NCBI GenBank assembly: GCA_030523425.1
Contig: JAUNIP010000017.1
Location: 1 to 34,053 of the forward strand
Direction of reading: 5' to 3'
Length of the DNA: 34,053 bases
From: Coriobacteriia bacterium
GTDB taxonomy: Bacteria; Actinomycetota; Coriobacteriia; Coriobacteriales; Eggerthellaceae
In this document: positions 1,959 to 17,968 of the stretch, in pieces
How positions within the stretch are numbered: the stretch's first letter is position 1
How the letters are laid out: each line of letters opens with the position of its first letter
Translations under genes and position numbers: made by a program
The notes under the pieces: model-generated
Databases searched by the model: none
What the model was told of the DNA's origin: nothing
Seen by the model: only the letters and a program-made list of their open reading frames with translations

Positions 1959-2029
1959 CGACAATCTTTCGGCGAAAACGTGTCTTTTCTGTAGCTTCGG
2001 TTGCGCAGGGGCGCTTCTGCCAGTTCGCT

Positions 2030-2059
2030 ATTATAGACTATACCGTTAGGTACTAACCA
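2030..2059 (-). promoter_or_regulatory. Promoter for the minus-strand GT2-DUF2304-GT2 operon
   Basis: Reading the minus strand, a consensus TATAAT lies at 2035-2030. A weak -35 candidate TGGTTA lies at 2059-2054 with 18-bp spacing. It is about 70 bases ahead of the ATG at 1958. The -10 overlaps the upstream region of the divergent wall-protein gene. Confidence 0.5.
2032..2057. promoter_or_regulatory. Two adjacent dyads in the divergent promoter region
   Basis: TATAG-A-CTATA (2032-2042) and GTTAG-GTA-CTAAC (2045-2057) are two short perfect inverted repeats between the divergent genes, 25-50 bases before the GTG of the wall-protein gene. They overlap the minus-strand -10. Operator function is a guess; short AT-rich dyads arise by chance. 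Confidence 0.3.
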
Positions 2060-2081
2060 CTTTCCCGCAAGGGGGGATTTT

Positions 2082-4874: not shown

Positions 4875-4895
4875 GCGCAGGCGGGGGAGAAAGCT

Positions 4896-6176
4896 ATGCC
4901 TGAACAGCACCGTTTGCTCATTCTGGGCTCGATGCATGAATTCGTCCAGCTGGTGAAGAAGGCGCGCGCCCGCGGATGGTATGTGGTGGTGTGCGATGGC
5001 TATGCGGATGGCCCCGCGAAGCCGTTCGCCAACGTTGCCTACAACATCAACGTGCGCGACACGGCCGCCATTGTTGAAGTGGCCAAGAAGGAACGCGTCG
5101 ATGGCATCATCGCGTCGTTTTCGGACGTGCTGGCCGAATGCTTGGCCACCATTGCCACCGAAGCGGGCTTCGAACCGTTCTTGGCGCCCGAAAAGCTGGC
5201 GTATCTGCGCGACAAAAGCCTGATGAAGCAGATGTTCGACGAAGCGGGCGTGCCTTATGCCAAAACGGTGCGCGTCACGCGCGAAAACGCCGCACAGCAG
5301 CTGGCTGGCCTAACCTTTCCCTGCGTGACCAAGCCGGCCAACGCATGGGGTTCCCATGGCGTGAACTTGGTGCGCACTCCCCAGGAAGTGCTTGACTGCT
5401 TCGGCGACGTGGCCCGCTTTGCCGAAGAAGACTACATCTTGGTGGAAGAATACAACGACGGCTATGAGATCAACATGATGGCGTGGGTGTGCAACGGCAA
5501 GCCCGTGGTGCTAGACCTGGCCGACCGCGAAAAGTCCCAGGAAGACCCCAATGCGTTGCCTTACGTCACGCGCATCACCTATCCCAGCGTGTTCACCGGC
5601 ACCATCATCGAAGAAGCCACGGACATCCTGCAGCGCGTGGTTGACTTTTTGGGCTACGAATACGGTCCTTTGTGCATGCAGTTTTTCTACCAGCCGGGGC
5701 GCGGCATCCAGGTATGCGAATGCTGCGGGCGCATCTTCGGCTACGAGCACGAACTGTTAGAGCTGGCAAGCGAAGGCGGCTTGTGCATTGAAGACCTGCT
5801 GCTAGACAGCGCCTACGACAAGGCTTCGGTGGCGCCGCGCCTGGCTGCGCACAACCCGCGCTTCACCACGTGGGCTTCCGCGCTGAACTTCCACGCACGC
5901 GACGGCGTGATTGCCCGCTTGGAGGGCATCCCCGAAGAGGGCGGCATCGTAAAGGATTCGCTGACGTATCTGCACGTGGGCAGCGTGGTGTCCCATGAAG
6001 TGGGCGACATGCCCTACTTGGCGCGCCTGCTGATTGCCACGCCGGACCGCGAAGAACTTGACGCCGCAACCGACGCCTTGTTTGGCGCCGTTATTGCCGA
6101 AGATGCTGCAGGAAATTCGCTGGTGTGCGAAAATACCAGGGTGACCTACGACGGCGTCTTGAGTGCGGAGCTGTAA
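4896..6176 (+). CDS. ATP-grasp family ligase (carbamoyl-phosphate-synthase-like fold)
   Basis: A 426-residue protein with the ATP-grasp order: an N-terminal Rossmann-like preATP domain (LLILGSMHEFVQLVKKA), an ATP-binding lysine region (CVTKPANAWGSHGVNLV, about 148-164), ILVEEYNDGYEINMMAWV, and the metal-ligand strand near 275-279. That last motif reads E-C-C-G-R instead of the common E-x-N-x-R, so the usual Asn is Cys277. Enzymes of this fold join a carboxylate to an amine or thiol through an acyl phosphate. GGGGGAG lies 6 nt before the ATG. Its TAA is immediately followed by the ATG of the WecE-type aminotransferase, so the two are coupled and may act on one product, perhaps ligating an amino acid to an amino sugar. 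The substrate is unknown. Confidence 0.85.
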   Translation: MPEQHRLLILGSMHEFVQLVKKARARGWYVVVCDGYADGPAKPFANVAYNINVRDTAAIVEVAKKERVDGIIASFSDVLAECLATIATEAGFEPFLAPEKLAYLRDKSLMKQMFDEAGVPYAKTVRVTRENAAQQLAGLTFPCVTKPANAWGSHGVNLVRTPQEVLDCFGDVARFAEEDYILVEEYNDGYEINMMAWVCNGKPVVLDLADREKSQEDPNALPYVTRITYPSVFTGTIIEEATDILQRVVDFLGYEYGPLCMQFFYQPGRGIQVCECCGRIFGYEHELLELASEGGLCIEDLLLDSAYDKASVAPRLAAHNPRFTTWASALNFHARDGVIARLEGIPEEGGIVKDSLTYLHVGSVVSHEVGDMPYLARLLIATPDREELDAATDALFGAVIAEDAAGNSLVCENTRVTYDGVLSAEL

Positions 6177-7307
6177 ATGATTGACTTTAACGTTCCACCC
6201 TTTTTGGGAACCGAACTTGACTATGTGCGCCAGGCGGCACAGCACAACCACAAGATTTGCGGCGACGGCCCGTTTTCCGCCAAGTGCCACGAATGGATGG
6301 AGCAGCGCTTCCACACCCCGAAGGCGCTTTTGACCACCAGCGGCACCGCGGCCTTGGAAATGGCGGCCATACTGTGCGACCTGCAGCCCGGCGATGAAGT
6401 GATCTTGCCCAGCTACACGTTTTCTTCCACGGCCACGGCTTTCCAGATGGTAGGCGCCACGTTGGTGTTCGTGGACATTCGCCCGGACACCATGAACATA
6501 GACGAAACGCTGATAGAGCCCGCCATCACGGAAAAGACGCGCGTGATAGTGGCCATGCATTATGCCGGCGTGGCATGCGACATGGACGCTATTATGGACA
6601 TTGCGGCGCGTCACAACCTGTTGGTGGTGGAAGACGCGGCCCAGGGCGTCATGAGCACGTACAAGGGCAAGGCCTTGGGAACCATAGGCACCTTCGGCTG
6701 CTTTTCCTTCCACGAAACCAAGAACTATTCCATGGGCGAAGGCGGCGCCATTCTTATCAACGATTCCGCCTATATTGAGCGCGCGGAGATCATTCGCGAA
6801 AAGGGCACGAACCGCCAGCGTTTCTTCCGCGGCCAAGTGGACAAATACACCTGGGTTGACCGCGGCGGGTCGTATTTGCAGTCCGACCTGAACGCGGCAT
6901 ATCTGTGGGCCCAGCTGCAGGCGGCCGACGCCATCAACGAAAACCGCTTGGCTTCGTGGCAATTCTACTGGGACCATTTCGCTCCCTTGGCGCAACAGGG
7001 CAAATGCGTTCTTCCCACCATTCCGTCCGATTGCGAGCATAACGCGCACATGTTCTACCTGAAGTGCGAAAGCTTGGAACAGCGCAGCAAGCTGATAGCG
7101 TTTCTGAAGGAATGCGGCGTCATGGCGGTGTTCCATTATGTACCGCTGCATTCGTCCCCCGCAGGCCAGATGTTCGGGCGCTTCAACGGCGAAGACCGCT
7201 ACACCACTTCCGAAGGGGATCGATTGGTGCGTCTTCCCATGTACTACGGCATGACCCACGAAGACCTGCGCACCATCGTAGACGCTGTGTTGGCGTTTTT
7301 CGACTAA
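6177..7307 (+). CDS. wecE: WecE-type dTDP-4-amino-4,6-dideoxygalactose transaminase (DegT/DnrJ/EryC1 family)
   Basis: A 376-residue PLP enzyme of normal family length. It matches enterobacterial WecE motif by motif: GTELDYV near the N-terminus, RPDTMNIDETLIE (102-114), VVEDAAQGVMSTYKG (150-164), FSFHETKNY with the PLP lysine at 182, EIIREKGTNR and FFRGQVDKYTW. WecE converts dTDP-4-keto-6-deoxyglucose to dTDP-Fuc4N using glutamate, for enterobacterial common antigen in Gram-negatives. The start abuts the stop of the ATP-grasp gene (TAAATG). No dTDP-glucose synthesis (rmlAB) or Fuc4NAc transferase genes are in the window, so the keto-sugar must come from elsewhere. Family assignment is firm; exact substrate is by analogy. 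Confidence 0.9.
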   Translation: MIDFNVPPFLGTELDYVRQAAQHNHKICGDGPFSAKCHEWMEQRFHTPKALLTTSGTAALEMAAILCDLQPGDEVILPSYTFSSTATAFQMVGATLVFVDIRPDTMNIDETLIEPAITEKTRVIVAMHYAGVACDMDAIMDIAARHNLLVVEDAAQGVMSTYKGKALGTIGTFGCFSFHETKNYSMGEGGAILINDSAYIERAEIIREKGTNRQRFFRGQVDKYTWVDRGGSYLQSDLNAAYLWAQLQAADAINENRLASWQFYWDHFAPLAQQGKCVLPTIPSDCEHNAHMFYLKCESLEQRSKLIAFLKECGVMAVFHYVPLHSSPAGQMFGRFNGEDRYTTSEGDRLVRLPMYYGMTHEDLRTIVDAVLAFFD

Positions 7308-7325
7308 GCGAAGCGGGGTGCGCGC

Positions 7326-7865
7326 ATGGGCGAATCCATGGGAGTGCGGTTGCGGGCGCTGCGCAAGCAGCGCGGCCTGACGCTGCAGGATCTTTCCCGG
7401 CAAACGCAGCTTTCCATCGCTCACCTAAGCAACATCGAACGGGACAGCGCCAGTCCCACCATCGCAAACCTGCACTTGGTGTGCGCGGCGCTTGACATCA
7501 CGCTGAACGACCTGCTTGCAGCCGATAAGGATGCCGCTGAAAATGGTTCCTATGTGGTGCCCCAGCAGGCCCGCCCCGCCATTTTCGACCAGGAAGGGCT
7601 TTCGTATTCTTCGCTGACCTTGGGGGATAGCTCGCTGAAGGCCACGGCCATGAGCCTGTGTTCCCACGAATGGGTGCATTTTTCCGCCCACGACCACGAC
7701 GAACTGGGCATCATGAGCAGCGGAAGCATGGAAATGAAAGTGGGCGATGCCACCCATGTGCTGCATCCGGGCGACAGCATCTTCATCAGGCAGGGCACCA
7801 TGCACAGTGCGCGGCTGTGCGGCGAAGGCGAAAGCGTGAGCTACTGGATTAAATCGGGCGCGTAG
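7326..7865 (+). CDS. XRE-family regulator with C-terminal cupin domain
   Basis: A 179-residue protein with an N-terminal helix-turn-helix (about residues 6-62: LRALRKQRGLTLQDLSRQT, then IAHLSNIERDSASPTI) and a C-terminal cupin barrel (about 95-175, including HDHDELGIMSSGSMEM and HPGDSIFIRQGTMHSA). This is the common XRE-cupin type, in which the barrel binds a small effector that changes DNA binding. Members often control amino-acid, amine or sugar metabolism genes nearby. It begins 18 nt after the wecE stop, behind GGGGTG, and is the last gene of that unit. The next operon starts from its own promoter about 210 bases further on, a plausible target. The effector is unknown. Confidence 0.88.
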   Translation: MGESMGVRLRALRKQRGLTLQDLSRQTQLSIAHLSNIERDSASPTIANLHLVCAALDITLNDLLAADKDAAENGSYVVPQQARPAIFDQEGLSYSSLTLGDSSLKATAMSLCSHEWVHFSAHDHDELGIMSSGSMEMKVGDATHVLHPGDSIFIRQGTMHSARLCGEGESVSYWIKSGA

Positions 7866-7950
7866 GCACCGGGTTCACAAAATCTCCACAGGGGACATGT
7901 GGCGCGCCCTGCGGAAAAGTTTTACCACAGAAAAATTTGCTGCGCGGTTT

Positions 7951-7977
7951 GCGCCCGGCGGGCTTGCGTAATTTTTT
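7951..7977 (+). terminator. Possible weak terminator after the regulator gene
   Basis: A small GCCC-GGC-GGGC hairpin lies in the gap 7866-8120 and is followed, after TTGCGTAA, by a T6 tract. The stem is only four pairs and the T tract is displaced, so this is tentative. The gap also contains CCACA-7nt-TGTGG (about 7889-7907) and then the promoter of the next unit. I see no gene in it. Confidence 0.3.
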
Positions 7978-8075
7978 GCTGGTGTAATTTCGGGCTTAGG
8001 ATTACTGTCGGGCGCTTGGCAATCGTTTCTGGGCGGGGCGGGTTGCTGGTGGGCCTGCGGGCGGGCCTTCTGCGA

Positions 8076-8084
8076 TGATAAAAT
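8076..8084 (+). promoter_or_regulatory. Extended -10 promoter of the ATP-grasp/MmgE/opine-dehydrogenase operon
   Basis: TGATAAAAT combines the extended TGn element (8076-8078) with TAAAAT (8079-8084), 36 bases before the ATG at 8121. No good -35 lies 17 bp upstream (the sequence there is G-rich), which suits an extended -10 or activator-dependent promoter. Confidence 0.5.
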
Positions 8085-8120
8085 GTGTGTAATCGAGAGT
8101 TTTATCTGGGAAGGGCCATT

Positions 8121-9095
8121 ATGCACACTGCGCTAGTTACGTCTTTGGGGTCTACCGCCGGCGATATTGTCATCAAGAAGCTGAAGGAAAACGGGTTTTG
8201 CGTGGTGGGCGCTTCCATCTATCCCGAAGAGTGGCTGGCAGATGCCCTGATGGTAGATGTGTTTTACGAATCACCCCGGGCGGACCATCCAGATGAGTTC
8301 CTGCCGTTTCTGTATGACGTGTGCGAAAAGGAAGCGGTCGATTTCGTTGTTCCGCTGATTGACCCCGAAGTTGACCTGCTGAACGTGAACCGCACATGGT
8401 TTGAAGAGCACGGCGTCACGCTGGGTATTTCGCCTAAGCCGGCCTTGGACATCATCCGCGACAAGAAGAAGCTGGCCGATTTCATCCGCGACAACTGCCC
8501 GGACACGGTTTCCATTCCCACGGAGTACCTGCGTGATTTGCCGGAAATGCCCAATTGGGGCTTTCCCTTGGTGTGCAAGCCCTGCAACGGCCGCTCCAGC
8601 CAGGGCCTGACCTATGTGAACAGCCAAGAAGAATGGAACGCGCTGGTGGCGGTGGCCGACATGGACACCTACATTGTGGAGCCCTTCGTGAAGGGGCCCA
8701 TCTGCATGGTGGAAATTGTGCGCAACCCCGCGCAGGGCGTGGTGGTCACCGCCACACGCGAGGAACTTATGTCTACACCGCACTGCTTGGCGCTTACCGT
8801 GCGTACCTATCAAGACGAAGCCTTGGAGCAGGCTAGCGCCGTGCTGGCCGAAAAGCTGGGCATCGTGGGCAACGTGAACTTCGAATACCTGCGCGACGAC
8901 GACGGGGTGTATCACTTCGTGGAGTGCAACCCGCGCTTTTCCGCGGGTGCCGAATTCGCCGTGATGGCAGGCTTTGACGTGGTCACGGGCCATATTCGCA
9001 GCTTTGCAGGCGAAGACGTGGACGCGTATGAGTTTGATCATCCGCGCATTATCGCGCGCAAGTACGAAGAGTTCCTGACGAAGGAAGAAAAGTAA
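8121..9095 (+). CDS. ATP-grasp family ligase (CarB-like)
   Basis: A 324-residue protein. The N-terminal preATP domain begins HTALVTSLGSTAGDIVIKKL; the ATP-binding lysine region is PLVCKPCNGRSSQGLTYV; next comes TYIVEPFVKGPICMVEIV; the metal motif is a complete E268-C-N270-P-R272 in HFVECNPRFSAG. This is a full active set for an ATP-dependent carboxylate-amine ligase. ATG 8121 is preferred over an upstream in-frame GTG at 8085 because GGGAAGG lies correctly before it and the promoter -10 overlaps the GTG. It is first in a unit with MmgE/PrpD and opine-dehydrogenase-like genes. Substrates are unknown; likely a small amino or carboxylic acid made or used by those two enzymes. Confidence 0.85.
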   Translation: MHTALVTSLGSTAGDIVIKKLKENGFCVVGASIYPEEWLADALMVDVFYESPRADHPDEFLPFLYDVCEKEAVDFVVPLIDPEVDLLNVNRTWFEEHGVTLGISPKPALDIIRDKKKLADFIRDNCPDTVSIPTEYLRDLPEMPNWGFPLVCKPCNGRSSQGLTYVNSQEEWNALVAVADMDTYIVEPFVKGPICMVEIVRNPAQGVVVTATREELMSTPHCLALTVRTYQDEALEQASAVLAEKLGIVGNVNFEYLRDDDGVYHFVECNPRFSAGAEFAVMAGFDVVTGHIRSFAGEDVDAYEFDHPRIIARKYEEFLTKEEK

Positions 9096-9172
9096 CAGCA
9101 CGCGTTGCTTTTAGGATGTGCGCCTGTGGGCGAACCGTGCGGCGCTGAGCGATCCGCAAGAAAGGGGAGGGC

Positions 9173-10519
9173 TTGAAGTTTACAACCGATTATAGGCTGG
9201 AGAACTATATTACAGGCCTTACCTGGGATAATCTGCCTGAAACCGTGCAAGCGCGCGCTCGCGGCTGCGCGCTTGACTTAGCCGGTGCCCTTATTCTGGG
9301 CAGCAAAGGCAAGCAGTTCCAAGCAGGGCTTTCGCTGGCGCGCAGCGTATTTGCGCCGGGGGATGTTCCGGTGTTCGGCAGCATGCAGCGCGCTTCGCTG
9401 CCGGGCGCAGCTTCGGCGTTGGGCCACGCGGCCAATTCGTTTGACATCGACGACGGGCACAACCTGGTGAAAGGCCATCCGGGCGCTTCCTTCGCGGCGG
9501 GCCTTTTGGCGGCGGCTTGCCAGCAGAATTGCACCTACCGGCAGCTGCTGACCACCTTGGTGGTAGGCTACGACGTGGCGGTGCGTGCAGGCAAGGCTAT
9601 CCAAAGCTCGTATGGCTTCCTGCACAGCACGGGCACCTACGGCGCGGTGGCAACTGCCGCTGTTGCAGGACGCCTGATGGGCCTTACGCCCGCTCAGCTG
9701 AACACGGCGCTGGCCATCGCGGATTTCCATGCTCCGCTGACGCCGGTCATGCGCGCGGTGGAATATCCGTCCATGTCCAAAGACGGCGTGCCCTTCGGCG
9801 CGCTGGTGGGCTGCATGGCGGTGCTGGAAACGCTGGCGGGTTCCACGGGCAAAACCTACACCCTGGAAAGCGAAGATCAGGCGTATCTGCTGGATGACCT
9901 GGGCGAAACCTTCGAAATCATGAACCTGTACTTCAAGCCCTACACCTGCTGCCGCTGGGCACATCAGCCCATCCGTGCCATTATCAACCTGCGCAAAGAA
10001 CAAGGCCTGTGCGCCGAACAGGTGGAACACGTCACCGTGCACACCTTCGATTCCGCCGCGCGCCTTTCCAAGGTTGTTCCTGCCGACACCGACGAAGCGC
10101 AGTACAACATAGCCTGGCCGGTAGCCTGTGCGCTGGTGTATGGCGAAGTGGGCTATAACCAGGTGTGCGACGAAGCGGTGGGGGACCCTGCGGTCATAAG
10201 CATGATGGATCGCCTGGATTTCACGGTAGACCCCGAACTAGAGGCGCAGTTCCCCGAAAAGCGCCTGGCCTGGGTGGAAGTGCTTACCACCGATGGCCGC
10301 ACCCTTGCAACCCCGGTGTACGCCGCCGAAGGCGAAGCCACAGACGGCATAGACAACGAATGGATTCGCGCGAAGTTTCTGCGCATCACCGCTCCCGTGT
10401 TTCCTGAACAGCACGCCGTTCGCGTTGCGGACGCGCTGCTGGAAGGCAGCCTGGACGCGCATGTGCGGGACTTTGTTGAGTCGATAAACGAAGTATTGGC
10501 CCCGGAAGAAGACCAGTAG
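9173..10519 (+). CDS. MmgE/PrpD family protein (2-methylcitrate dehydratase-like)
   Basis: A 448-residue protein of normal family length, started by TTG 2 nt after a very strong AAAGGGGAGG. Family hallmarks are SFDIDDGHNLVKGHPGASF (about 94-112), LHSTGTYGAVATAAVAGRL, a KPYTCCRWAHQPI segment and a C-terminal lid domain. The family includes 2-methylcitrate dehydratase, iminodisuccinate epimerase and cis-aconitate decarboxylase, all acting on di- or tricarboxylates, usually by elimination or decarboxylation. No prpB/prpC methylcitrate genes are nearby, so propionate metabolism is not indicated. It lies between an ATP-grasp ligase and an opine-dehydrogenase-like gene on the same strand with short gaps, suggesting that it prepares or modifies a carboxylic acid for them. 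Confidence 0.87.
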   Translation: MKFTTDYRLENYITGLTWDNLPETVQARARGCALDLAGALILGSKGKQFQAGLSLARSVFAPGDVPVFGSMQRASLPGAASALGHAANSFDIDDGHNLVKGHPGASFAAGLLAAACQQNCTYRQLLTTLVVGYDVAVRAGKAIQSSYGFLHSTGTYGAVATAAVAGRLMGLTPAQLNTALAIADFHAPLTPVMRAVEYPSMSKDGVPFGALVGCMAVLETLAGSTGKTYTLESEDQAYLLDDLGETFEIMNLYFKPYTCCRWAHQPIRAIINLRKEQGLCAEQVEHVTVHTFDSAARLSKVVPADTDEAQYNIAWPVACALVYGEVGYNQVCDEAVGDPAVISMMDRLDFTVDPELEAQFPEKRLAWVEVLTTDGRTLATPVYAAEGEATDGIDNEWIRAKFLRITAPVFPEQHAVRVADALLEGSLDAHVRDFVESINEVLAPEEDQ

Positions 10520-10553
10520 GAAACGCAGTAGAAACCAAAGGAAGGAATTGAAC

Positions 10554-11768
10554 ATGAAGGATATGTCTTACTTGGCAGACAAGCCCATTGCCGTGCTAGG
10601 CGCCGGTGCCGTCGGCATGACGTGTGCCGCCGACTGCAAGCTGGCGGGCAAGGAAGTACGCCTGTATTCCCGCAGTCCGCGCAGCATCGAAGGCCTTGAC
10701 CGCACGGGCATCTTGCTTGACGGCATCCAGCGCAACCTGTACGGCTTCGAGCGTTCGGGCCGTGCGCATCTGGATATGTACACCAACGACATGGCCGAAG
10801 CCGTGAAGGGCGCCGGCATCATCATCATCGGCATCACCGCGCTGGCACAGGAAGACTACCTGCAGAAGCTGGTTCCGCTGCTGGAAGACGGCCAGGTCAT
10901 CCACACCTTCACCGACAACTACGCCAGCCTGCTCATCCGCAAGTACATGCGCGAAATGGGTGTGGAGAAAGACGTCATCGTGGGCGGCTGGGCTTCCGCT
11001 CCTTACGGCACCCGCGTGGAAAAGGTGCAGGGCTTCTGGATGCCGCACGTGGGAGCGAAGTACCGCGCCATCACGCTGCGCGGCGCCTGCCTGCCTATGA
11101 GCGACATCGACGAATTCATGGAGTCAACCAAGTACATGCCCTGTATGGACGCCATCACCGAAGGCGACGGCCCCGTGGCTGGCGACACCATGCTTGACAT
11201 TGGTTTCTCCAACGTGAACCCGGTCATCCACGTGCCCGCTTCCATTTTGGGCGTTTCCAGCATGGAAAACTGGAGCGACGTGTATGGCAACGACCCCGAC
11301 AGCTACTCCATGTACTCCCACGGCCTGTGCCCGTCCATCTGCGAAGTGCAGTACCAGTTCTTCAACGAAGAGCGAGCCATTGCCGACGCCATCGGTATCG
11401 ACATGCCCAAGTATGACTACGAGATGTTCTTCAGCCGCCGCAGCATTCTGACCCAGGAATACATGGGCCTAGACGAAAACGGCAAGGACAACGTGGTGTT
11501 CCCGCTTGACAAACCCTGCGACGAAGGCAACACCGGTCCGAACAACATAGATCACCGCTACATCACCGAAGACATCCCGGTAGGTTGCAAGATCTACCAC
11601 GACCTAGGCGTGAAGTTCGGCGTGCCCACGCCCATCATCGACTCCATGATAGTGCTTGGCGGCGCCATGCACAAAACCAACTGGTTCGAAACCAGCAAAT
11701 ACAACCTAGACTACTTCGGCATAGGCCAGATGACCAAGGAAGAACTGTTGAAGTACCTGCGCGGCTAG
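10554..11768 (+). CDS. NAD(P)-dependent octopine/opine dehydrogenase family protein
   Basis: A 404-residue protein with an N-terminal Rossmann domain (PIAVLGAGAVG, 11-21) and a C-terminal octopine-dehydrogenase helical domain. The likely catalytic His226 lies in NPVIHVPASIL, and the late family signature RYITEDIPVGCKIY is followed by FGVPTPIIDSMI. Opine dehydrogenases reductively condense the amino group of an amino acid with an alpha-keto acid, or run in reverse. The ATG at 10554 is preferred over TTG at 10548 because AGGAAGG is 8 nt before the ATG but only 2 nt from the TTG. It is the last gene of the unit and ends 4 nt before a strong terminator. Substrates are not readable; family assignment is good. 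Confidence 0.85.
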   Translation: MKDMSYLADKPIAVLGAGAVGMTCAADCKLAGKEVRLYSRSPRSIEGLDRTGILLDGIQRNLYGFERSGRAHLDMYTNDMAEAVKGAGIIIIGITALAQEDYLQKLVPLLEDGQVIHTFTDNYASLLIRKYMREMGVEKDVIVGGWASAPYGTRVEKVQGFWMPHVGAKYRAITLRGACLPMSDIDEFMESTKYMPCMDAITEGDGPVAGDTMLDIGFSNVNPVIHVPASILGVSSMENWSDVYGNDPDSYSMYSHGLCPSICEVQYQFFNEERAIADAIGIDMPKYDYEMFFSRRSILTQEYMGLDENGKDNVVFPLDKPCDEGNTGPNNIDHRYITEDIPVGCKIYHDLGVKFGVPTPIIDSMIVLGGAMHKTNWFETSKYNLDYFGIGQMTKEELLKYLRG

Positions 11769-11772
11769 ATTC

Positions 11773-11808
11773 TTGCTGTAGCCCGTACGGGCTACAGCAA
11801 TGGTTTTA
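11773..11808 (+). terminator. Strong terminator: perfect 28-nt palindrome
   Basis: Positions 11773-11800 are an exact palindrome with half-site TTGCTGTAGCCCGT, followed by TGGTTTTAT. It lies between convergent genes, 4 nt after the opine-dehydrogenase stop and about 20 bases past the minus-strand ATP-grasp stop. It could serve both strands, but the T tract favours plus-strand termination. Confidence 0.8.
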
Positions 11809-11819
11809 TAAGGCGACCT

Positions 11820-12977
11820 CTATCGTACAATCCCGTTGCGGGCTTTTTTGGCTTCGGGGGATAGGGCATCTATTTGGGCTAGGCGTTGGCGGTAGTAGGG
11901 GCCGGCTACGGGGTCGGCCATTAAGGGCTTGTATACCTGCAGGTACTTGATGCCGCTGTGGGAATTAATCTCCATCAGCTTGGGGCCTTTGGTGGTGATG
12001 CCTATGTCGAAGCCCAAATATTGGCAGGCGCTGAACTTCGCGCATACCTTCGCAATCATATCCTTCACTTCGGGCCAGCAGGCTATGTCGCCTTCGGCCA
12101 GGGCACCCGTGGCGGGGTGGTTGGGGGAGTCGACGGTTTTGGCGGCATAGACTATCTTGCCGTTGCCGAAATGCCCGGTCTCCATGTCGATGGACGTGTT
12201 GTAGGAAAAGATGTCGGCCGTGGTGGGTGGTTCGTAGTTGGGCTTGTAGCCTTCGTCGTCGCCGGTGGAAGCGAAGCGCACGTAACTGGCCACGGGGAAG
12301 GGGTTCGCGCCGTCTTCGTTTGCCACCAGCATGCGGATGGTGTGGATGCGCGAATTGATGGCGGCCATCTGTTCGTCGGGATAGATGAACTCGGTGAACA
12401 CGTAGTTCGTCAGTTTCGCCAGTTCTTCGGCCAGCTGTTCGGCGGAAACTTCTTGGCCGTCAAAGCGGTAGGCGCCGTCAACATATTCCATCATGTGGAA
12501 GCCGCTGGCTTCGGTGCCGTTGCAGGGCTTGCAGGCGAAGGCGCCTTCGGCTTGCAGCTTTTCCAAGAAGGCTTCCGTTGTGGCGCGGCCGTCGGAAAAC
12601 TGCAGGGGGATCAGGCGCGTGGCGGCGTTGTAGTAATAGTATTCCGGCAGGTATTGCTGCAGGTCGGAATCCATGAACATGGCATTCAAGGTCAGCTTGT
12701 CGTTGATCCAGATGCGCTGCCAGTCGTTTAGGGGCCACAGCTTCCAGTAGTCGTAGTCGGTCAGGTAGTCGGCCTTGTTTTCGTCGGTCAGGCCGTAAGC
12801 GCAGGCCGATTCGGCCAGAAAGCCGTTTGCGTGGGCCCATGCAAGGTAGTCGGGGTCGAACAGGCCGCTTTCGGCTTCGCGCTTTTGCAGCATAAGGTAC
12901 TCTTCGGCGAAACGCTTGGTGAAGCCGTCTTCTAGCAGGTCATTCAGGGTGGGATTGCTCAGCACAGCATGCTCCAT
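11820..12977 (-). CDS. Sugar-transfer-associated ATP-grasp protein (ATPgrasp_ST type)
   Basis: A 385-residue protein. The nucleotide-binding region reads FACKPCNGTEASGFHMMEY; then INSRIHTIRMLV, matching the NTiR motif of this group; and the metal-binding end is YLGFDIGITTKGPKLMEINS with the E-x-N pair, followed by a Q-x-x-K-P-L stretch. ATPgrasp_ST proteins are usually encoded among glycosyltransferases and are predicted to attach amino acids or other amines/carboxylates to glycans. It ends the minus-strand glycan cluster, though a hairpin at 13029-13063 separates it from the GT2 upstream. No clear ribosome site precedes the ATG at 12977, so the exact start is less certain. Substrate unknown. 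Confidence 0.82.
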   Translation of the reverse strand: MEHAVLSNPTLNDLLEDGFTKRFAEEYLMLQKREAESGLFDPDYLAWAHANGFLAESACAYGLTDENKADYLTDYDYWKLWPLNDWQRIWINDKLTLNAMFMDSDLQQYLPEYYYYNAATRLIPLQFSDGRATTEAFLEKLQAEGAFACKPCNGTEASGFHMMEYVDGAYRFDGQEVSAEQLAEELAKLTNYVFTEFIYPDEQMAAINSRIHTIRMLVANEDGANPFPVASYVRFASTGDDEGYKPNYEPPTTADIFSYNTSIDMETGHFGNGKIVYAAKTVDSPNHPATGALAEGDIACWPEVKDMIAKVCAKFSACQYLGFDIGITTKGPKLMEINSHSGIKYLQVYKPLMADPVAGPYYRQRLAQIDALSPEAKKARNGIVR

Positions 12978-13085: not shown

Positions 13086-14360
13086 TTACTTGTCCTTCTT
13101 CAGGGAACGCAAGGGCTGGGTTAGCTTCCAGCTGGTGGAAGAGTGTATCTGCTCTAGTTCTCCTTCCAGCTGCGCTATGCGTTCCAAGCAGGCTTCGAAA
13201 TGCTTGGACAGGCCGGCTATCAGCTCTTGCGCGTCGGCCTCGGCCTTGCGCAGGCGGTTGCATTCGGCCCGTTCGTCTTCCAGCAGCGCACTGGCGGTGG
13301 TGAAGGCTTCCAGCAAATCGTCGTAGCGCCCTTCCAAGTCGGGGTCGCTCAGCAGAAAATGCGACGTCAGTTCGTAGTAGTCTAGCGCGGTGAAGTGATA
13401 TTCCTGCGCAAGCACTTCGCATGATTCCGGGTTGTCTAGCAGCTGTTTTAAGGCATCCACGCCGGCCCAGCATACGAAGTCGTCGTTTTTCTTGGGCCCC
13501 ACCAGCAAAAACGCCTTTTCAATGGCAAGCTGCACGGCGGTGTGCGCATCCGGATTTTTGAAGTGGCTGCCGAAGGCGGCAATGAACAGGTCGTCCGGCA
13601 TGTTGTCGAAGTAGTGCTCGCGGATGAGCGAGTATTCGTTCCTGAAGCGCGAATGGCTTGCGTGGCTGTCGTTGCTGTTGTTGGTCACGCCGCCGGATTC
13701 TTCCATGTAGCGGCGCATGTTCACTAAGGGCTCGTGCAGCACATGCATGTCGTAGCGATGCGCGATGCGCACCCAGTAATCAAGGTCGTGCGATTGCGCG
13801 TAGGCCAAGTCGAAATTGCCCACGGTGCGCATGACTTCGGTGCGCATGAGCACCGAAGGGTGGGACAGGTGGTTGCACTCGAAGAATAAAAGCTCCAGCC
13901 ACTCTTCCTTCTTCTGCATGTCAACATCGAAAATGGCCAAGTAGTCGGGGTTTTCAGCGCTTATATCTGCGCCGTTTTCGTCTATGAGCCCGATGGTGGA
14001 AAACACCACGTCACAACCTGTTTCTTGCATATAGGCCATCTGCTTTTCCAGCTTTTCGGGCAGCCACACGTCGTCGCTGTCTATGCGCGCCAGGAATTCG
14101 CCTTTCACCAGGGAAAAGCCCACGTTGGTGGCCGCGGAGATGTGGCCGTTTTCGGGCAAGCGGTGCACCACTATGCGGGGGTCTTCGTAAGATTCTATAA
14201 TCTGGCATGATGCGTCGGTGGAGCCGTCGTCCACAATGATGAACTCGAAGTTCCCATACGTTTGGTTCAGCACGCTTTCGATGGAGTGTCCAATAACGTC
14301 TTCGTGGTTGTAGTTAACCATCAAGACGCTTACCAGGGGCGTACTAGGACCAGTAGTCAT
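13086..14360 (-). CDS. Family 2 glycosyltransferase with C-terminal coiled coil
   Basis: A 424-residue protein. The GT2 domain fills residues 8 to about 230 with VSVLMVNYNHE, VDDGSTD (43-49) and the metal-binding DSDD (94-97). The C-terminal part (about 345-410) is rich in Glu, Leu, Arg and Ala and looks like a coiled coil. It ends in SSTSWKLTQPLRSLKK, a tail often seen on bacterial surface-polysaccharide glycosyltransferases. There are no membrane helices. GAGAAGG lies 9 nt before the ATG at 14360. It sits between a second GT2 and an ATPgrasp_ST gene on the same strand, consistent with building a cell-surface glycan. Donor and acceptor are unknown. Confidence 0.87.
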   Translation of the reverse strand: MTTGPSTPLVSVLMVNYNHEDVIGHSIESVLNQTYGNFEFIIVDDGSTDASCQIIESYEDPRIVVHRLPENGHISAATNVGFSLVKGEFLARIDSDDVWLPEKLEKQMAYMQETGCDVVFSTIGLIDENGADISAENPDYLAIFDVDMQKKEEWLELLFFECNHLSHPSVLMRTEVMRTVGNFDLAYAQSHDLDYWVRIAHRYDMHVLHEPLVNMRRYMEESGGVTNNSNDSHASHSRFRNEYSLIREHYFDNMPDDLFIAAFGSHFKNPDAHTAVQLAIEKAFLLVGPKKNDDFVCWAGVDALKQLLDNPESCEVLAQEYHFTALDYYELTSHFLLSDPDLEGRYDDLLEAFTTASALLEDERAECNRLRKAEADAQELIAGLSKHFEACLERIAQLEGELEQIHSSTSWKLTQPLRSLKKDK

Positions 14361-14487
14361 TATTTGCTGCCTTCTCTGGAACTAATCCCACGCAAGGAAC
14401 ACCTTGCATCATTCACTTTGCTAAGCCAAACGCACACTTCAAATCATACCCTTCGCCGGAACAATTACCATGCAGAATTTCACGCAA

Positions 14488-15759
14488 CTAGCGGTTGCCC
14501 GACCGCTTCCGGTGTGCCAAGAAATAGCGCGACACCGAAATCCAGGTCTGCTTCATGCCGTAATGGCGCAGGTTGAACGCCCCTTGGCTTACCAGGTTCT
14601 TCGTGTAGCGCAAGCGGTGCTGCGGCGGGTTTTCTATGCCGCGCACTTCGGCGAACAGGCGGATGGTGTTCGGCGCAATGTAGGGATACTCAAACACCAG
14701 CGCGGGGTCCATGCGGTTGAACATGCGCTCTATCTGGGCTCTTATTTCCGGATCGTCGGCGCTGTGCTGCTCAAGCACGCCGCCCATGTACATGAAGCCG
14801 CGGCTGTAGTGCGCACACAGAATGCGTTCGTCGGTAACGCCCAAGCGCTCTATCACGTCCATCATGTCGTTCCAGCGGTCGAAGGGCACCATGGGCGAAT
14901 TCTTGTGGAAGTTTATGTTCTTGTCCGCAGTCTCTTCACGGTAGCAGTAGTACGCCTGGTCAAGATAGATGATGTTTTTCGCCTGCAGCATGGTTTCGGC
15001 CAAGAAGGGGTTGTCCGCCCAGCCGGCGCCGGGGATGGGCAGAAAATGGATGTCGTGTTCGGTCAGGAAGTCCTTGCGGTACAGGGCCGACCAAATGGAG
15101 GGGTGGTGGTGGAACAGGTGGATGGCGTCGGTGATGACGAAGGGCTGCTGCGCCGGCCTGATAAGGTCTTTGTAGCTGCAGGGAAGCTGCTGCTCTTGTT
15201 TGGTGTCCGGCATGTAGTAGCGCCAATAGGGCGTCTTTATGATGTCGATGGTCTCTTCGAAGCCGGAAGCGAACTCCAACATGTCTTCGTACATGGTGGG
15301 CAGAATCCAGTCATCGGGCTCCAAGATGGCAATCCAGTCGCCGTGGGATTCCGCTATGCCGCGGTTGCACGAAGCGCCGTAGCCTTCGTTTTGCTTGTCC
15401 ACTATGCGGATGCGCGGGTCGTCCTTGGCGTGCGCCTTCATGATGTCTAGCGAATTATCGGTGGAACCGTCGTTGATGCACAGGATTTCCAAGTTCTTGT
15501 ACGTTTGGTTGCTGATGCTGTTTAGGGCCTGGTCAAGGAAGGGGGCTGTGTTGTAGGTGGGCACCACCACCGAAACCAAGGGGCCTTCGCCTTCCGCGCG
15601 GATGCCTAAGGGGTTCACCTTGCCGCGCGCCTTCTGCGCCGCGGAGAACGCCTGGTTTGCCTTCGTAGCGTCGAAGAAGCCTTCCGCCTTACGCTGTTCG
15701 AAGCGGTCCAGATCGGCTTCGGTATAGGTGTAGTAGGTGTTTGCCGTGTTAGTTTCCAT
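14488..15759 (-). CDS. Family 2 glycosyltransferase
   Basis: A 423-residue protein with a roughly 60-residue charged leader region and then a classical GT2 domain: VSVVVPTYNTAPFLDQAL (62-79), INDGSTDNS (95-103), NEGYGASCNRG and the metal-binding EPDD (147-150). The C-terminal 200 residues are helical and specific to polysaccharide-type GT2 enzymes (WADNPFL, YCYREE). The ATG at 15759 is chosen over an in-frame GTG at 15765, because the purine-rich AAGGGTG directly abuts the GTG. A consensus TATAAT lies 35 bases upstream. It belongs to the minus-strand glycan cluster. Specificity is unknown. Confidence 0.87.
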   Translation of the reverse strand: METNTANTYYTYTEADLDRFEQRKAEGFFDATKANQAFSAAQKARGKVNPLGIRAEGEGPLVSVVVPTYNTAPFLDQALNSISNQTYKNLEILCINDGSTDNSLDIMKAHAKDDPRIRIVDKQNEGYGASCNRGIAESHGDWIAILEPDDWILPTMYEDMLEFASGFEETIDIIKTPYWRYYMPDTKQEQQLPCSYKDLIRPAQQPFVITDAIHLFHHHPSIWSALYRKDFLTEHDIHFLPIPGAGWADNPFLAETMLQAKNIIYLDQAYYCYREETADKNINFHKNSPMVPFDRWNDMMDVIERLGVTDERILCAHYSRGFMYMGGVLEQHSADDPEIRAQIERMFNRMDPALVFEYPYIAPNTIRLFAEVRGIENPPQHRLRYTKNLVSQGAFNLRHYGMKQTWISVSRYFLAHRKRSGNR

Positions 15760-15793
15760 GTGCACCCTTACTTCTTGCTTGCAAAACAGAAAA

Positions 15794-15799
15794 ATTATA
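15794..15799 (-). promoter_or_regulatory. Consensus -10 upstream of the GT2 gene
   Basis: The minus strand reads GGCGTATAATTT, with TATAAT at 15799-15794, 35 bases before the ATG at 15759 and just past the DUF6541 stop. No convincing -35 is found. It suggests the downstream GT2 genes can be transcribed independently of the DUF6541 gene. Confidence 0.45.
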
Positions 15800-15823
15800 C
15801 GCCATATGCGCCTGTGCCGCCCA

Positions 15824-17968
15824 CTAAACTGCCTGTATGCGGTACAGCCTCATGTCGCCTTCGCTGAGAACCACCTCAAAGCCGGGGGTTTCGTCGGTGA
15901 TGGCGTCTAAGCCGTACCACGATGTGGCGGTGTTTTTTGTCCATAAGTAGTGGCTTTCGCGCTTCACGCTGTCGCCGGCGTCAAGCAGCACCACGTAGTG
16001 CGCCCCCGTGTTCTTCACCGCTTCCTGCACGTTGGCGTTGGTGGTAATCTGGTACAGCTGATCGCGGATGTACCAGCTGTCCATCTTTTCGCTGTCCGTG
16101 TCGTAGCCGCGCAAATACCGATAATACACATTCGCGTCGTTTTCCACGGCAGCAAAGCAGCTGCCGTCGTTGGGCTGGTTCAAGATGACTTCCCCTGCGG
16201 GCACAATTTCTTTTACTTTGTCCATGAACCGGGATTCTTCTTGCGTGTACACCCGATTGGGGTTGGTGGGGTCCATGGGGCGCAGATAATCTTCCACCAT
16301 GCCGAAGGCGGTGTGAGTTTCCAGTTGGGCCTGTTCGTTTATGAAGTTGTAGCCCAGCCACTTGGAAATGGCGGTTCCCACCGGCGTGATGCCGGCGGTG
16401 GGGACGAAGTTGAACACGCAAAACACCACCAGCACCACCGCGGTGAGCGCACCCGTAAGCGGAGTGGGGTTGGCTGCGGTCTTCGGCGCAACCTTGCGGC
16501 AGACCCACACCGCGCCGCGGCATGCGGTTGCCAACCCCAGGCATGCCAGCGGGATGCCCGCCATGGCAAGTGTGGCACCCACGCGGTGCGAATCGGTGTA
16601 CCAAAAGCCTGCCATCAGGGATTTCAGCATGCCGTCGGTGTTGATGTCCACCAAGAAGATGAAGGCAATCAGCACATAGGAAACCACCAGCCAGCGGTGT
16701 TGCTTGGAGCGGCAGGCCGCCACGGCGCCAATGACCACCGCCACCGCCAGAAGCATCTGGGCTGGTTCCTTGTAGGCCACCGCCGCCACGAACACGAAAG
16801 TTTGGAGCTTGGAAGCGTAAGAGGGCCACCAGTCGGCCAAGGGGCCGTTCTGCATGAAGGGGGTGAAATACAGCGCCACCCAGATAACCGCAATGCACAC
16901 GGCGCACAGCGCGCACACCCCTGCGCCCACCAGCCGGTTGTGCTTGGGGGATTTCACCTTCGCCTGCACGGCGCGGCTTACTGCCAGGCACAGGAAAGGC
17001 GCCAACAGCACTACCGCCGAAAACAGCGTGTTGGGATGTGCCAGCACAATGCCCGCGCAGGCACCCACGAACATACCAACGCGCAGGGCAAGCCCTGCTT
17101 GGTTTCCGCTTTTTTCAAACAGGCTTATGAAGCACACCATGGCCACGGGCAGCAGGCATATGCCCAGCAAGTTGGGATACAGCGGGCCGAAGTACAGGTA
17201 ATCCCACGGAATGGCGGCGAACGACAAGCAGCCCAGCGCGCCGCACGCCACCACCAGCGGGTCTTCGGGAAACAGGGTTTTCAGCAGCACGCATGCGCCC
17301 AAGGGGAAGGTGATGCCAACAAGCACCACGGCCACAGCGTTGATAGACACGGCAATGCTAACGCCTGTGGCGCTTATAATCATGGCGCACAGGCAATGCC
17401 ACGCGGCAGGATAGAAAGCGCCGCCGCTAGACCAATAGAAGGGAACAGCATCGGGGTTGGTGGCCCCTTCCGGATACACGCCGGTGCTGAACACCGAATA
17501 GCAACCGCTCTTCACGAAGTAGCGGATGGTTCCTGTGTGGAACACGTTGTCGAATTCCTGTAGGTAGGCTTCGGGGCTGCCGATGGTTGCCAGGTACACC
17601 ACGCCTACCAGCACCAGCCCCACGCACACGTACGCTGCTGCCGTCAAGGCGCACTTCTTGCCGGAAAAGGACTGGGCCCCCAAGCGTTTCGGTTCCGCCG
17701 CAACACCACGCTTTCGCCCTAATGCGAAAGACACGCAGGCAGCCGCCAGGCACACAACCAAGGTGGGAAGGAACAGCCAAGCCCAGGTGGTGAACACCCC
17801 CGCCTTTTCCAGCACCACTGCCAGCACGCCGTAGGCCACCAAAGCCGCAAACGGCGCTAAGACCAAGCTGGTCAATCGCTCTAAACGGGCCGCCCTGAAA
17901 AGGAAGTAGCCGGGGACGTACAGAAACACCAGCGCAACAGCCGCTGCCGCTATAAGGGATATCCACAT
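15824..17968 (-). CDS. DUF6541 family multi-pass membrane protein (probable GT-C-like glycosyltransferase)
   Basis: A 714-residue protein with many hydrophobic helices (first at about 3-25, then through about residue 535) and a soluble C-terminal part of about 180 residues. Two parts are typical of DUF6541 actinobacterial envelope proteins: a long extracytoplasmic loop near 135-175 containing EFDNVFHTG and YPEGATNPDAVPFYW, and a C-terminal region with YRYLRGYDTDSE and HYVVLLDAG. The architecture resembles GT-C enzymes, which use polyprenyl-phosphate sugars outside the membrane. The acidic FDN in the first loop would be the natural catalytic candidate. GAAAGG lies about 9 nt before the ATG. 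The DPM1-like GT2s elsewhere in the window could supply its donor. The enzymatic role is inferred, not shown. Confidence 0.8.
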   Translation of the reverse strand: MWISLIAAAAVALVFLYVPGYFLFRAARLERLTSLVLAPFAALVAYGVLAVVLEKAGVFTTWAWLFLPTLVVCLAAACVSFALGRKRGVAAEPKRLGAQSFSGKKCALTAAAYVCVGLVLVGVVYLATIGSPEAYLQEFDNVFHTGTIRYFVKSGCYSVFSTGVYPEGATNPDAVPFYWSSGGAFYPAAWHCLCAMIISATGVSIAVSINAVAVVLVGITFPLGACVLLKTLFPEDPLVVACGALGCLSFAAIPWDYLYFGPLYPNLLGICLLPVAMVCFISLFEKSGNQAGLALRVGMFVGACAGIVLAHPNTLFSAVVLLAPFLCLAVSRAVQAKVKSPKHNRLVGAGVCALCAVCIAVIWVALYFTPFMQNGPLADWWPSYASKLQTFVFVAAVAYKEPAQMLLAVAVVIGAVAACRSKQHRWLVVSYVLIAFIFLVDINTDGMLKSLMAGFWYTDSHRVGATLAMAGIPLACLGLATACRGAVWVCRKVAPKTAANPTPLTGALTAVVLVVFCVFNFVPTAGITPVGTAISKWLGYNFINEQAQLETHTAFGMVEDYLRPMDPTNPNRVYTQEESRFMDKVKEIVPAGEVILNQPNDGSCFAAVENDANVYYRYLRGYDTDSEKMDSWYIRDQLYQITTNANVQEAVKNTGAHYVVLLDAGDSVKRESHYLWTKNTATSWYGLDAITDETPGFEVVLSEGDMRLYRIQAV

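Follow-up and report, generated by a model that had tools for sequence, protein, structure and literature searches.

A probable opine module for Fuc4N decoration in a surface-glycan locus of Coriobacteriia

Opine-bearing surface sugars and the Coriobacteriia locus

Chemically, bacterial surface sugars that bear opines are known, but no gene set for these substituents is described in the literature searched. According to PMC10609480 (its ref. 48), alanopine is amide-linked to Qui4N in the O-antigen of Providencia alcalifaciens O35, and D-Asp is carried by 4-amino-4,6-dideoxygalactose (Fuc4N) in a glycan of Treponema medium (PMC10609480). Our literature search retrieved neither the P. alcalifaciens O35 gene cluster nor a paper in which an opine dehydrogenase is connected to an aminotransferase and a cluster of polysaccharide genes. 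Here, we analysed a stretch of 34,053 nucleotides (the window) from a fragmented draft Coriobacteriia assembly of 1.97 Mb, in which three consecutive genes encode an ATP-grasp ligase (ATPg2), an MmgE/PrpD-family protein, and an opine dehydrogenase (ODH). This trio probably forms the opine module of a surface-glycan locus, with the opine attached through an amide bond to Fuc4N in a glycan of the cell surface. Comparative data support the predicted membership of a glycan locus, the link to Fuc4N, and the coupling of ODH with ATP-grasp enzymes; we infer the identity of the amino acid and the 2-oxo acid, the order of the steps, the shares of the two ATP-grasp enzymes of the locus (ATPg1 and ATPg2), the direction and role of the MmgE/PrpD protein, and the carrier route.

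The likeness of the Providencia O35 structure to the proposed product lies in the product chemistry, i.e., an opine amide on a 4-amino-4,6-dideoxyhexose of a surface polysaccharide, whereas it belongs to a Gram-negative O-antigen and its sugar is Qui4N. Two other systems resemble the genes themselves. The Fuc4NAc branch of the enterobacterial common antigen (RmlA/B, WecE, WecD) shares the WecE equivalog and RmlB, hence dTDP-Fuc4N, but uses WecD, the usual Fuc4N N-acetyltransferase, for which 0 of the 13 genomes tested here exceeded the curated cut-off. The Arn pathway (ArnB-ArnC-ArnE/F-ArnT), which transfers L-Ara4N to lipid A, shares with the related loci a DegT-family 4-amination, an ArnC-like undecaprenyl-phosphate transferase, and small EmrE-like proteins. 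It differs in using UDP-Ara4N and a formyl intermediate in place of dTDP-Fuc4N and ATP-grasp ligases, the latter here in Actinomycetota, where the ArnT equivalent is only a candidate.

In the proposed pathway, RmlA/RmlB and WecE would provide dTDP-Fuc4N. By reductive condensation, ODH would build an opine from a 2-oxo acid and either a free amino acid or one that the sugar already carries, and the MmgE/PrpD protein would epimerise one stereocentre of the resulting iminodicarboxylate, as iminodisuccinate epimerase does. The amide bond through which the opine, or an aminoacyl group, replaces the usual acetyl on the 4-amino group of Fuc4N would be made by ATPg1 and/or ATPg2, before or after lipid loading. 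The decorated sugar would then follow an Arn-like route, in which it is placed on undecaprenyl phosphate, flipped, and transferred to a polymer of the cell surface. The locus supplies candidate enzymes for opine substituents and predicts an aminoacyl- or opine-modified Fuc4N on the surface of Coriobacteriia.

Amino-sugar genes, ATP-grasp ligases and carrier genes

The WecE protein encoded upstream of the trio scored 627.8 bits against NF008687 (cut-off 375) and 617 bits against TIGR02379 (cut-off 435), which places it at equivalog level. Its co-occurrence with ATPg1, whose gene it adjoins, was counted in 76 genomes, 63 of which had not been selected for ATPg2. WecE was present in 13 of 13 ATPg1-positive genomes, as compared with 22 of the 76 overall, and lay at most 2.3 kb from ATPg1 in 12 of the 13; within the 63 genomes not picked for ATPg2, all six that carried ATPg1 also carried WecE. 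The nominal hypergeometric value of 3e-9 for this association ignores the relatedness of the genomes and how they were picked. RmlB was above its cut-off in 13 of 13 genomes tested. With WecE and RmlB present and WecD not found in the genomes tested, dTDP-Fuc4N could therefore be made and the ATP-grasp ligases would occupy the place of the acetyltransferase; they appear to stand in for WecD.

The top structural match of ATPg1 was the L-amino acid ligase 3vot (Z 33.4, the following matches reaching Z 30-31), and its modelled fold fits amino-acid amide formation while naming no substrate. For ATPg2, the structure search returned general ATP-grasp folds only (2pn1, biotin carboxylases), which likewise name no substrate, and families missing from its list do not count as evidence. 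Relatives of ATPg2 with at least 41% identity were found in 13 of 396 Coriobacteriia genomes, the 12 beyond the window being 41-58% identical. Genomes are labelled G and loci L hereafter, the window genome being G000. ATPg2 homologues were found with ATPg1 and WecE in four loci (L051, L052, L053, and L057), with WecE and an ATP-grasp of the L-amino-acid-ligase type (LAL_C2 domain) in L054, with RmlA and RmlB in L055 and L056, and with Wzx and a DegT aminotransferase in L050, L053, and L060. In G159, a gene of the sodium/glutamate symporter family stands between ATPg1 and ATPg2 (L051:6632-7990), a possible hint of a dicarboxylic amino acid substrate. In G040, an ATPg1 relative carries one in-frame TGA stop (C1:1643729-1644991).

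These neighbourhoods bear on two statements of the original prediction. The trio had been described as a self-contained operon, a view that we abandon, as its first gene is linked in evolution to those of ATPg1 and WecE, which have the same orientation. It had also been proposed to make an opine-like, amide-linked carboxylate serving as a metallophore, osmolyte, or signal. The opine and amide part of this proposal is retained, given that an ATP-grasp gene lies within two genes of every member found of the ODH subclade described below. A free molecule of this kind, with the glycan genes merely adjacent, is unlikely: ODH, an epimerase, and a ligase would suffice for such a compound, and the trio has its own gap, a possible promoter, and a terminator, but ATPg2 relatives are consistently found in amino-sugar and glycan loci with WecE, RmlA/RmlB, flippases, and glycosyltransferases, the Bacteroidales relatives of ODH lie in capsule loci, and the window annotation shows no gene for a nicotianamine-synthase-like enzyme, a metallophore exporter, or a metallophore receptor. 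The earlier observation that no nicotianamine-synthase-like or racemase gene is present also agrees with the annotated window genes, and a staphylopine-type operon (CntK/CntL/CntM) is not favoured on the same grounds.

Carrier and export genes of the Arn type were found near the WecE-ATPg1 pair in related genomes. An ArnC-like glycosyltransferase gene is located near it in six genomes (G096, G041, G017, G007, G337, and G298); by coordinates, that of G298 sits between WecE and ATPg1, and the G041 protein matches ArnC 9hwj (E 1.7e-37). The clusters of the other five genomes (L053 and L083-L086) each encode two small EmrE/ArnE-F-like proteins with about four transmembrane (TM) segments. As an observation in its own right, these five clusters are predicted to specify an Arn-like Fuc4N export pathway with an amino-acid-ligase-like enzyme in Coriobacteriia. 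In the window genome, the ArnC-like gene (C2:3822-4730, 43% identity) is on contig C2, separate from the window contig in the same fragmented draft. It adjoins an EmrE-like gene 61% identical to that of G096, and its neighbours encode a Wzx-like protein and a DegT-like aminotransferase, both named from sequence without a family search.

The opine dehydrogenase and the MmgE/PrpD protein

ODH has the C-terminal Octopine_DH domain (PF02317, 106 bits, threshold 30) behind a Rossmann domain (NAD_Gly3P_dh_N, 31.7 bits, threshold 23.1), and matched CENDH 1bg6 over its length (residues 9-394, E 7.8e-17). Its H226 and D340 align with H202 and D297 of CENDH, which we take to be the catalytic His/Asp pair, and are invariant in a seven-member alignment. 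By family activity, ODH is predicted to be an NAD(P)H-dependent enzyme that couples amino acids to 2-oxo acids. Among PDB opine dehydrogenases, its sequence matches were CENDH and octopine dehydrogenase; they included no CntM-type entries, which may speak against a free metallophore. CENDH and octopine dehydrogenase are distant from ODH, whose own subclade is a different one, associated with genes for ATP-grasp enzymes and capsules.

In a maximum-likelihood tree, this subclade (support 98/100) comprises the window ODH, that of locus L020 (genome G372, same order as the window), those of two loci from rumen Bacteroidales metagenome-assembled genomes (MAGs), and that of IMG/VR contig L072, the relatives being 76-82% identical to the window protein. 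The ATP-grasp proteins that accompany its members are of differing subfamilies, so the pairing apparently had more than one origin, which favours a functional connection between the two. Both Bacteroidales loci are capsule clusters with 46% GC and the order WecG - DegT - ATP-grasp - ODH. A search of 344 genomes from the order of the Bacteroidales locus found no subclade member beyond that genome itself, and the capsule linkage therefore rests on two MAGs. L072 (IMGVR_UViG_3300012016_000004, positions 1985-12100) is a phage contig with an SPP1-type portal gene downstream (Pfam) and, by eye, a terminase-like gene just after ODH, which is 76% identical to that of the window; upstream of it are genes for a Ddl-type ATP-grasp and an amidoligase_2/DAM-like/GNAT-like protein. 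The presence of close dehydrogenases in Bacteroidales capsule loci and on a phage contig suggests that the opine tag is exchanged among gut bacteria, and phages may exert selection on it. More tentatively, the locus could specify an Arn-like pathway for Fuc4N with amino-acid ligases instead of acetylation, its stereo-defined dicarboxylic opine cap being built by ODH together with a relative of iminodisuccinate epimerase. This would be the first genetic route to a 4-amino sugar decorated with an opine amide in Gram-positive bacteria of the gut and rumen, and its ODH would have been exchanged among Actinomycetota, capsule loci of Bacteroidota, and a ligase-carrying phage.

ODH relatives with at least 50% identity were found in 7 of the 396 Coriobacteriia genomes, window included. 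The sister group of the subclade (48-58% identity; L013, L014, L015, L061, L062, and L073), from Coriobacteriia and an Enterococcus raffinosus megaplasmid, is paired with an Asp/Glu racemase (PF01177), and an NlpA lipoprotein gene stands beside its ODH where this was checked (L013, L014, L062, and L073). No ATP-grasp or glycan genes were seen among the genes examined there. This ODH-racemase-NlpA arrangement is a conserved module in its own right, and we rejected it as the identity of the window ODH, which lacks the racemase and substrate-binding lipoprotein and has this group only as its sister in the tree.

With the same gene set and glycan context, ODH might instead act on the sugar itself, joining a 2-oxo acid to the 4-amino group of Fuc4N to give an N-(1-carboxyalkyl) amino sugar, the carboxylate of which would then receive amino acids from the ATP-grasp enzymes. 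ODH families do accept varied amines, but characterised members combine 2-oxo acids with amino acids rather than sugar nucleotides, and we know of no N-carboxyalkyl-Fuc4N. We thus regard this route as very unlikely, although sequence alone cannot tell it apart from an opine linked to Fuc4N through an amide.

The MmgE/PrpD protein scored 139 bits against MmgE_PrpD_N (PF03972) and 112 bits against MmgE_PrpD_C (PF19305), both with a threshold of 32. A 2-methylcitrate dehydratase of propionate catabolism was considered and rejected, the NCBIfam scores for PrpD being 27.3 against 575 and 24.4 against 458 bits, with no propionate genes nearby. The best PDB match of the MmgE/PrpD protein was iminodisuccinate epimerase (2hp3/2hp0, E 1.5e-23), followed by Bacillus subtilis IRG1 (6e-23). 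Two bases, H99 and Y145, have been proposed for iminodisuccinate epimerase (PMC7347537), of which H99 aligned without gaps in the window and L020 proteins. The relationship is distant, and the context is xenobiotic degradation there and biosynthetic here. The simplest reading of the predicted role is that the protein epimerises what ODH makes, given that the substrate of iminodisuccinate epimerase is an iminodicarboxylate resembling an opine. If it holds, MmgE/PrpD proteins would have a role beyond propionate and itaconate metabolism. To our knowledge, no MmgE/PrpD protein is known in the Providencia O35 system. MmgE relatives with at least 50% identity occur in 2 of the 396 Coriobacteriia genomes.

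The MmgE/PrpD and ODH pair could also be catabolic, an imported opine or iminodicarboxylate being epimerised and split oxidatively, with the ATP-grasp gene unrelated; we consider this quite unlikely. Remote MmgE-ODH pairs, 20-25% identical to that of the window, occur in G072 (L018:4231-9155) and G032 (L019:5931-8491), and the G072 pair, which adjoins amidohydrolase, ornithine-cyclodeaminase-family, and ABC transporter genes, is apparently catabolic in context. Iminodisuccinate epimerase itself was reportedly described from iminodisuccinate degradation. The opine region of a succinamopine Ti plasmid is bounded on one side by an mmgE gene, also in a catabolic context (PMC6733357). As recurrences of MmgE/PrpD with ODH, these cases are suggestive and not proof. 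Against a catabolic window pair, the remote ODHs branch far from that of the window, no transporter or catabolic gene is located near the window trio, and the trio of L020 is likewise flanked by surface-protein genes, a glycosylation-type ATP-grasp, and DUF6541.

Several observations weigh against the opine-Fuc4N assignment. Conservation of the trio across Coriobacteriia, as searched by gene neighbourhood, held for G000 and G372 and for no other genome, i.e., the full trio was found in only 2 of 396. In G372, WecE is 27 kb away, and in the window WecE is set apart from the trio by a separate regulator and a 255-nt gap. The small EmrE-like protein gave no PDB match. In the MmgE/PrpD protein, a Tyr is present in the region of Y145, where the alignment needs a short gap, and K200 of B. 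subtilis IRG1 is not clearly kept. No MmgE/PrpD gene was seen among the genes examined in the Bacteroidales and phage ODH loci, from which it follows that this protein is not obligatory. Given that the remote G072 pair looks catabolic, the window pair could in principle use an imported opine. The main weaknesses are the few genomes with a full trio, the dependence on MAG contigs, and evidence drawn entirely from sequence.

Gene layout and flanking elements

The features of the locus are listed in Table 1. As originally described, the trio consists of three same-strand genes separated by short gaps (77 nt between ATPg2 and MmgE/PrpD, 34 nt between MmgE/PrpD and ODH), with open reading frames on the forward strand and Pfam matches above the gathering scores, those of ATPg2 being 38.1 bits for ATPgrasp_Ter (threshold 29.1) and 38.1 bits for PylC-like_N (threshold 27). 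The perfect 28-nt palindrome reported at its end was also recovered exactly. About 0.0002 such palindromes would be expected by chance in a random 34-kb sequence of the same composition. It ranks first among the terminator-like sites; it has 12 pairs, and its U tract is weak. The extended -10 element proposed at the front of the trio is present as TGATAAAAT, but it has no recognisable -35 partner and a sigma-70 scan, which returned 0 sites against 2.3 expected, did not detect it, so the promoter claim is weak. The trio is possibly under the control of the XRE-cupin regulator encoded upstream.

Table 1. Features of the Coriobacteriia locus, with positions in the window.
Feature	Position	Strand	Basis
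Secreted repeat protein, 930 aa	2082..4874	+	No Pfam match; homologues beside ATPg1/ATPg2/WecE
ATPg1, predicted ATP-grasp amide ligase with L-amino-acid-ligase-like fold	4896..6176	+	ATP-grasp_4; structural match 3vot
WecE, dTDP-4-amino-4,6-dideoxygalactose (Fuc4N) transaminase	6177..7307	+	NCBIfam equivalog
XRE-family helix-turn-helix and cupin regulator	7326..7865	+	Pfam HTH_3 and Cupin_2
Extended -10-like element TGATAAAAT	8076..8084	+	Sequence; weak, without -35
ATPg2, predicted PylC/CarB-like ATP-grasp amide ligase	8121..9095 (ATG start)	+	Pfam; Coriobacteriia homologues
MmgE/PrpD-family protein	9173..10519 (TTG start after AGGGGAGGG)	+	Pfam; nearest solved relative iminodisuccinate epimerase
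Opine dehydrogenase (ODH)	10554..11768 (ATG start)	+	Octopine_DH; CENDH 1bg6; tree
Perfect 28-nt palindrome, intrinsic-terminator-like, separating convergent genes	11773..11800	.	Exact inverted repeat
ATPgrasp_ST, sugar-transfer-associated ATP-grasp, convergent neighbour	11820..12977	-	PF14397, 64.3 vs 31.4 bits
Two GT2 glycosyltransferases and DUF6541 multi-pass membrane protein	13086..17968	-	Surface-glycan context

Homologues of the convergent ATPgrasp_ST protein are encoded in L020 and near ATPg2 in five other loci (L053, L054, L058, L059, and L060). The DUF6541 protein (15824-17968), with about 15 TM segments by hydropathy estimate, is a candidate ArnT-like GT-C transferase only.

The order in L020 is repeat protein - ATPg1 - ATPg2 - MmgE - ODH. 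The secreted repeat protein is a usual neighbour of ATPg1/WecE loci in relatives: homologues are encoded beside ATPg1, ATPg2, or WecE in L020, L051, L052, L053, and L057, and also in L082 and L087; paralogues of the protein flank related loci, L020 having three. Judged by eye, the C-terminal stretch SIHSTGY...RGCIGLT of the window protein is similar to an L,D-transpeptidase motif.

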